In this document: piece by piece, positions 6,831 through 7,079 of the stretch
Layout of the letters: every line of letters starts with the position of its first letter
Numbering within the stretch: position 1 is the first letter of the stretch
Assembly: GCA_020052375.1 (NCBI GenBank)
Contig: JAGVPG010000024.1
Coordinates: forward strand, 1 to 64,000
DNA: 64,000 bases
Direction of reading: 5' to 3'
From: Actinomycetota bacterium
GTDB taxonomy: Bacteria > Actinomycetota > JAHEXW01 > JAGVPG01
Notes under the pieces: model-generated
Database searches by the model: none
What the model saw: only the letters and a program-made list of their open reading frames with translations
What the model was told of the DNA's origin: nothing
Program-made: the position numbers and the translations under genes

Positions 6831-6867
6831 AAAAAACCCGCAGCCAAGATCCCTCTCTGACCACGGG
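6831..6867 (-). terminator. Leader terminator (attenuator) before metY
   Basis: On the minus strand an 11-bp stem (arms 6857-6867 and 6837-6847: CCCGTGGTCAG with TTGGCTGCGGG, including G-T pairs) closes a 9-nt loop and is followed by six T (6831-6836). It lies between a Cys/Met-rich leader peptide and metY, with the metY ribosome site just beyond it. Its 5' arm overlaps a segment (6864-6870, CCACCCG) that can instead pair with CGGGCGG (6909-6915) inside the leader ORF, 6 of 7 positions. This gives a plausible antiterminator. Confidence 0.78.
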
Positions 6868-6895
6868 TGGGTGTCTTACTCGGAATGCCTGATCT

Positions 6896-7003
6896 TTACA
6901 TAGGCATGCCGCCCGCGCCATACCTGCGCATACACATGCAGCAAAATACCTCTGCGTGACTGCTACTTTTGTTGGTTGTGAGCCTAAGTAAAGCTTTGAA
7001 CAT
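6896..7003 (-). CDS. Cys/Met-rich leader peptide of the met operon
   Basis: 35-codon ORF starting at ATG 7003, six bases after AAAGG. The second half reads [16 protein letters not shown] and stops at TAA 6896-6898. Three Cys and four Met codons fall within its last 15 codons. It sits about 40 nt behind the transcription start expected from the promoter at 7051-7079 and directly ahead of the metY terminator. Stalling at codons 21-25 would leave 6909-6915 free to form the antiterminator. Completing translation would cover it and let the terminator form. The coding and pairing are seen directly; the mechanism is inferred by analogy with amino-acid operon attenuation. Confidence 0.75.
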
Positions 7004-7050
7004 TACGTACCTTTCTTATTATCGTATTTCCTATCGGATTACTTGGGTAT

Positions 7051-7079
7051 ATTATACAAGCCATTTCCTATCCTGTCAA
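7051..7079 (-). promoter_or_regulatory. Sigma-70-type promoter of the met operon
   Basis: On the minus strand, TTGACA (7074-7079), a 17-base spacer, and TATAAT (7051-7056): a full consensus match. The transcription start should lie near 7044, giving a leader of about 250 nt before metY. Confidence 0.85.

Follow-up and report, generated by a model that had tools for sequence, protein, structure and literature searches.

Leader peptides with cysteine and methionine codons as probable ribosome-mediated attenuators of metY and other sulfur genes

The metY operon and its leader region

We analysed a stretch of 64,000 nucleotides from an Actinomycetota bacterium, hereafter referred to as the window, in which a met operon on the minus strand is preceded by a short leader region (Table 1). 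The first-pass annotation had named it a metY-metB operon; metY does come first, but the name is only a rough one, as the order is metY-metX-metW-radical SAM-cystathionine beta-synthase-cystathionine gamma-lyase/synthase type. The product of the last gene (131..1306) also matched NF005810 with 529 bits, which is under the cut-off of 594 for that family. A radical SAM gene of the variant_rSAM family sits inside the operon, between metW and the cystathionine beta-synthase gene. We take the operon chemistry to be the conversion of O-acetylhomoserine and sulfide into homocysteine, followed by reverse transsulfuration to cysteine. Because cysE genes are present elsewhere in the genome, the metY operon need not be its sole source of cysteine.

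Table 1. Genes and leader features at the metY locus of the window
Feature	Position	Strand	Evidence
metY, O-acetylhomoserine sulfhydrylase	5497..6795	-	TIGR01326, 658 bits, over cut-off
metX, homoserine O-acetyltransferase	4387..5496	-	NF001209, 473 bits, over cut-off
metW	3801..4406	-	TIGR02081, 212 bits, over cut-off
Radical SAM protein, NCBIfam variant_rSAM family	2649..3791	-	NF045502, 354 bits, over cut-off
Cystathionine beta-synthase	1294..2652	-	TIGR01137, 553 bits, over cut-off
Cystathionine gamma-lyase/synthase type PLP enzyme	131..1306	-	NF005871, 519 bits (cut-off 513)
Promoter, TTGACA-17 nt-TATAAT	7051..7079	-	TTGACA 7079-7074, TATAAT 7056-7051; 12/12 consensus matches
Shine-Dalgarno-like AAAGG of leader ORF	7010..7014	-	Sequence; duplex with 16S tail -4.8 kcal/mol
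Leader ORF, 35 codons	6896..7003	-	ATG 7003 to TAA 6896
Sensor codons 21-25 (Cys Cys Met Cys Met)	6929..6943	-	Stall scan
Antiterminator 5' strand UGGCGCGGGCGG, sharing letters with leader codons	6909..6920	-	RNAduplex
Antiterminator 3' strand, overlapping the terminator 5' arm	6858..6870	-	RNAduplex and permutation test across relatives
Start-stop element: in-frame Shine-Dalgarno-like GGGCGG, 7 nt, ATG, then stop	6899..6914	-	Shine-Dalgarno duplex -5.8 kcal/mol
Hairpin ATGCCT/AGGCAT around the stop codon, upper part of the antiterminator fold	6885..6907	-	Sequence; stalled-ribosome folds
Intrinsic terminator, 11-bp stem and T6	6831..6868	-	-18.9 kcal/mol

All parts that the first-pass annotation had proposed for the leader were recovered at their stated positions on the minus strand, including the promoter, the 35-codon ORF with its ribosome site, the 11-bp terminator with T6 (given there as 6831-6867) and the hairpin around the stop codon, whose arms (6902-6907 and 6885-6890) are exact complements and pair in the stalled-ribosome folds of the window. 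The terminator stem (6868-6858 with 6846-6836) comprises 11 pairs, several of them G-U, and is followed by T6 at 6836-6831; a simple consensus scanner did not detect this terminator. The competing pairing drawn between 6909-6915 and 6864-6870 is likewise real, and RNAduplex lengthened it to 6920-6909 with 6870-6858 (-15.8 kcal/mol, one C-A mismatch and one bulge). Folding of the whole leader against shuffled sequences was uninformative (z = -1.1); the signal sits in conditional folding and in comparison. We also observed a dispersed G-rich palindromic repeat with copies in the window at 7274-7312, 32755-32806 and 63342-63394, one of which sits upstream of the metY promoter.

Related leaders ahead of sulfur and isoleucine genes

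The same arrangement recurs ahead of sulfur genes in dozens of genomes, far beyond chance. MetY relatives were gathered from named genomes and from relatives of the window's genome, and upstream of many of them, in several phyla, lies a short ORF of the same plan: L033 (MIMCCVTMCCQRGMEGLPM), L036 (MMMCCPMHTRRRNWGGSFM), L040 (MMMCMCYYTGRGGLFM; genome G109, a Syntrophobacterales MAG), L044 (MVMCGLMCCCTGWMEGSFM), L058 (RMCCCGTACRSRQGGGSPM), L004 (CRMAMRPHLGAGGVPV; from the window's phylum) and the more distant L032 (CMCCGIAMCNCLRIMGIAEVLS; Desantisbacteria). A first covariance model, built from 12 leaders of metY relatives, revealed further copies in the genomes already collected. Covariance-model matches, whose E-values are rough, were found in 61 of the 155 genomes of G109's class, the weak ones being isoleucine leaders, and in 10 of 397 genomes of the window's phylum, where the window's own match and six others are real and belong mostly to one family. 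With a second model, matches were detected in 6 of the 31 genomes in the class of that family, and a phylum-wide search around G109 added more leaders. The second model found nothing in Desantisbacteria (the phylum of G101); the L032 leader from this phylum is too divergent for it.

About 56 Cys/Met leaders were curated in this way from Syntrophobacterales-type genomes, the window's phylum and scattered MAGs. Many of the relatives are MAGs, and MAG taxon labels can be wrong; L034 (MIMCCMCCCCMC) and L039 (CMMMSRAWRDAGSGIMNP), both ahead of metY in MAGs labelled Bacteroidales and Dehalococcoidia, are probable members. We dropped L217, L227 and L229 (GroEL-like Gly-Met tails), L213 (a radA-like gene) and bare terminators as false matches with weak model scores. 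The frames of L141, L156, L169 and L184 are broken or ambiguous, possibly through assembly errors. In L156, GGAGGGCTCGTTCATGTGA is conserved and the Cys/Met ORF continues past it out of frame, which gives the impression that the start-stop persists as nucleotide sequence, and here too an assembly error could be the cause; L141 (G117:C20:13958-14088) is a leader-like match with its Cys codons in a different frame, followed by a gene for a radical SAM protein and then genes resembling NifX and NifH. An apparent Rrf2-type regulator with a Cys-rich stretch was seen near or just upstream of metY at L002, L038, L045, L049, L061 and L168; such a gene occurs in metY loci that have no leader, plus a few that have one.

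Conservation among these relatives centres on the Cys/Met cluster and on a C-terminal GG-x-[PF]-M-stop. In the last 22 codons of 40 nonredundant leaders, Cys accounts for 11.9% and Met for 17.5%, proportions that are biased by our having curated leaders by their Cys/Met tails. The Cys codons are split between TGT (63) and TGC (42), which indicates that the coding is conserved and not the letters alone. The conserved Cys/Met codons for which the first-pass annotation had proposed an alignment were thus found, both amino acids being present, the final codon aside, in 38 of the 40 leaders.

The regulon reaches beyond metY. Leaders also precede metX, an O-acetylhomoserine-sulfhydrylase-like gene followed by a PAPS-reductase-family gene (L136), genes for ThiS, ThiF, a JAB-domain protein and sulfite reductase (L142 and L173), a sulfate ABC transporter (L175, with 6 Cys), DUF2292 with a rhodanese-like protein or porin (L143 and L222) and probably cysK (L170). 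Cys-rich, Met-poor leaders precede the sulfite-reductase and sulfate-transport genes (cluster ECCPCGM in L142; IICCSRDLC in L173, with no Met in the cluster), metY leaders carry a mix of both, and L211 (MMSLMAM), a metY leader in the window's phylum, has no Cys at all; sensor-codon content therefore appears to follow the pathway. Single-amino-acid versions such as L142, L173, L175 and L211 would also suit an attenuator that senses one amino acid, either Cys in most leaders or Met in the phylum of the window, with passenger codons for the other. We regard this as unlikely, though deserving of weight, given that 38 of 40 leaders combine Cys and Met and that the window has codons for both at productive stall positions (see below).

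The sequences to which the same model gave low scores (about 22-39 bits) turned out to be leaders with clustered Ile codons, e.g. RPIIISNIIISFPIGGLVVE, ahead of citramalate synthase (cimA), the entry to isoleucine synthesis. These leaders (L176, L178, L179, L181-L183, L185, L186, L188-L195, L197-L206, L223, L226 and L228) come mostly from Syntrophobacterales-type genomes and, in their last 22 codons, contain 35% Ile, 0.7% Cys and 1.0% Met. Their layout is that of the Cys/Met leaders, with sensor codons, a GGAGG box, the stop, 23-30 nt, a GC-rich terminator and a T run; in both families, most members have about 23-31 nt between stop and terminator. Relatives keeping the terminator and lacking the Cys/Met-rich ORF had been named as evidence against attenuation. 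What we found is mostly the opposite, namely Ile codons swapped in before an isoleucine gene, and the only metY relative that keeps the terminator with no clear Cys/Met ORF is L050/L145, from a Poribacteria MAG. As a natural codon-swap control of the kind that attenuation predicts, the Ile leaders support the proposed mechanism.

The same findings bear on whether a metabolite riboswitch or T-box governs the terminator, with the ORF incidental. Sulfur genes are often under SAM riboswitches, as in Geobacter metX (PMC545781). In the window's leader region, however, Rfam gave no riboswitch, T-box or known leader at gathering score and chance matches only at E up to 5, which bears out the earlier statement, at gathering and permissive thresholds alike, that there is no SAM riboswitch or T-box. 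The conserved part is moreover a coding cluster whose amino acid identity tracks the gene, and we consider this explanation very improbable.

Conditional folding and the end of the leader

Covariation was assessed by pairing each leader's antiterminator strand with its own terminator arm and with those of other leaders. Among 39 nonredundant Cys/Met leaders, own-pair duplexes averaged -17.9 kcal/mol against -15.3 (sd 0.44) for permuted pairs, and none of 5000 permutations was as good as the cognate pairing, so that the covarying antiterminator and terminator stems sought in relatives do exist. Striking pairings are those of GAUAAUGGGC with GCCCAUUAUC in L032, GGUAAUGGG with CCCAUUACC in L222 and CACCUGGGUGCGGG with CCCGCGGCCAGGU in L004. 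The same test did not reach significance for the Ile leaders, which resemble one another too closely. A leader acting through Rho or translation coupling, and not through an intrinsic terminator, would have a parallel in mycobacterial cys leaders, which lack terminators and may use Rho (PMC1262725). Against this, nearly all curated members have a stable hairpin and T run at a fixed distance past the stop, and the terminator 5' arm covaries with the antiterminator; we give such a route very little credence.

For the stall scan, folding covered the RNA from the ribosome front edge at each codon to where the terminator 5' arm ends. Within the window, the pairing probability of the antiterminator, scored as upstream pairing by the core of this arm, was 0.16 with the A site at codon 21, 0.99-1.00 at codons 22-25 (Cys, Met, Cys, Met), 0.00 at codons 26-29 and at most 0.15 from there to the stop. 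The productive block moves by one or two codons with the assumed ribosome edge (20-26 overall) and coincides with the earlier suggestion that a stall at codons 21-25 would expose 6909-6915. Upstream stalls (e.g. at codon 17 and codons 7-10) likewise give antiterminator-like folds in this simple model of the window. Across the family, sensor codons occupy positions -19 to -11 relative to the stop, beyond which a stall is no longer productive, and they are enriched at productive positions (odds ratio 4.1, P about 4e-15; 39 leaders, the sequences not being independent).

A feature missed by the first-pass annotation is the start-stop element. ATG or GTG stands directly before the stop in 33 of 39 nonredundant Cys/Met leaders, with a strong Shine-Dalgarno sequence at about 7 nt (mean -9.9 kcal/mol, compared with -1.3 for other in-frame NTG codons), and the penultimate codon of the Ile leaders is GTG in 9 of 11, mostly as GTG-GAR-stop (Shine-Dalgarno -10.2). 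The window's GGGCGG box (-5.8) ranks between the leader's own Shine-Dalgarno (-4.8) and that of metY (-7.7), and most relatives have a far stronger one. Conservation of this box is in part conservation of the antiterminator; L032 and L222, however, retain a G-box although their antiterminator is situated further upstream. Where the terminal ATG varies it becomes mainly GTG or TTG, likewise start codons. L143 ends in ATA, with an overlapping ATGA still present, and so makes a pure start-codon account of the terminal Met less convincing. A Met codon at the very end would be a poor site for sensing Met. SD-NTG-stop may keep the ribosome over the antiterminator strand and make termination the default, the role of the protector hairpin in trp.

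After the Cys/Met cluster, GG-x-[FP]-M-stop is the best conserved stretch of peptide, which could also mean that the nascent peptide is the sensor; a small molecule, and not tRNA charging, would then trigger its arrest of the ribosome at the stop. We find this hardly likely. A ribosome parked at the stop would hide the antiterminator, and termination would be favoured. The conserved letters share positions with the antiterminator and with SD-NTG-stop, and most substitutions of the final Met give GTG or TTG, which are start codons. Ile leaders of the same layout have another ending (GG-L-[AV]-V-E).

Proposed control and known systems

The window leader combines what is expected of an attenuator: a short ORF with a ribosome site and pathway-product codons, its translation being predicted; an intrinsic terminator between this ORF and the first gene; a mutually exclusive antiterminator that, according to computed folding and covariation, is accessible during a stall at the sensor codons and hidden by a ribosome at the stop; and sensor codons that are conserved across relatives, with an identity that follows the pathway (Cys/Met for sulfur genes, Ile for cimA). 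We therefore favour the reading, with a probability of roughly 0.88, that the metY leader acts as a ribosome-mediated transcription attenuator, which would respond to the supply of charged tRNA-Cys and tRNA-Met and thereby control the metY operon. Sequence and comparison establish all its parts, the conservation of the Cys and Met codons, the fixed geometry, the covariation and the Ile version before cimA.

When Cys and Met are plentiful, the ribosome would reach the stop codon and cover the G-rich antiterminator strand (6909-6920), upon which the terminator (6868-6836) would fold and RNA polymerase would halt before metY; SD-NTG-stop may help to hold the ribosome on that strand, with termination as the default. 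When Cys or Met is short, the ribosome would stall on codons 21-25, and 6909-6920, lying clear of its front edge, could then pair with the 5' arm of the terminator. With this arm paired upstream, the terminator would be blocked and the operon transcribed. Stalling, termination and read-through presumably take place as this scheme predicts. That either Cys or Met alone would suffice is its least secure step, which we infer from codon conservation only. Met is the initiator too, and a shortage strong enough for an elongation stall might cut leader initiation. As a more tentative idea, perhaps somewhat short of even odds, the leaders may form a modular platform in which swappable sensor codons (a Cys+Met either-or gate for sulfur genes, Ile for cimA) sit in one fixed chassis, whose in-frame SD-start-stop parks the ribosome on the antiterminator strand by pausing or independent initiation and replaces the trp protector hairpin.

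These leaders would tie metY, metX, sulfite reductase and sulfate uptake to stalling at Cys/Met codons in dozens of genomes, including Syntrophus-type anaerobes. In the Ile sister family nature has already carried out the codon swap, and the start-stop that closes the leader adds a new, testable component to attenuator design.

The metY leader shares with trp/his/ilv-type attenuators a leader ORF with pathway-product codons, control by ribosome position, an antiterminator that shares sequence with both the leader and the 5' arm of the terminator, and an intrinsic terminator. It differs in sensing via Cys and Met codons and in that we identified no clear 1:2 protector hairpin, the conserved SD-NTG-stop standing at its end instead. 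The Geobacter metX SAM (S-box) riboswitch concerns the same pathway in related bacteria and is terminator-based, but it binds SAM and has no leader peptide (PMC545781), and the window leader has no Rfam match. Leaders of the Mycobacterium cys operons and Bifidobacterium cbs carry runs of Cys codons near the stop before cysteine genes, with no conserved terminator or antiterminator and no Met codons noted (PMC1262725). The uORFC-8-2 motif upstream of cysS in Rhodobacterales resembles ours in that ribosome-mediated attenuation is predicted for it and that it has Cys codons and an intrinsic terminator, but its Cys codons are tandem and the only sensor codons, it controls cysteinyl-tRNA synthetase, and its structure and taxa are different (PMC8632094). 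We rejected an assignment of the window leader to this motif (tandem Cys at about positions 14-15, cysS), as gene, codons and length all differ.

The closest precedent is the metL leader before metNIQ in Streptomyces lividans, a short ORF ending GARCMCRRMCAF ahead of a methionine gene set, in which Cys and Met codons are mixed (RCMCRRMC) under the annotation of a methionine leader (PMC8079986). It differs in being described as methionine-dependent only, in being leaderless, in preceding transporter genes, in coming from Actinobacteria and in having no clear Rho-independent terminator (PMC8079986). Our search of the open literature (subscription papers and preprints being outside its scope) for Met-codon, O-acetylhomoserine and citramalate-synthase attenuators found no description of this family, nor a Cys+Met leader attenuator for sulfur assimilation; it returned only the annotated Streptomyces Met leader and Cys-only leaders elsewhere. 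Within the scope of this search, the first-pass view that a dual Cys/Met leader is undescribed holds for this family, but mixed Cys/Met codons had already been reported in metL (PMC8079986). Overall, the mechanism is the known one of trp-type attenuators, combined with a Cys+Met sensor pair that is new, a sizeable regulon and an unusual end of the leader.
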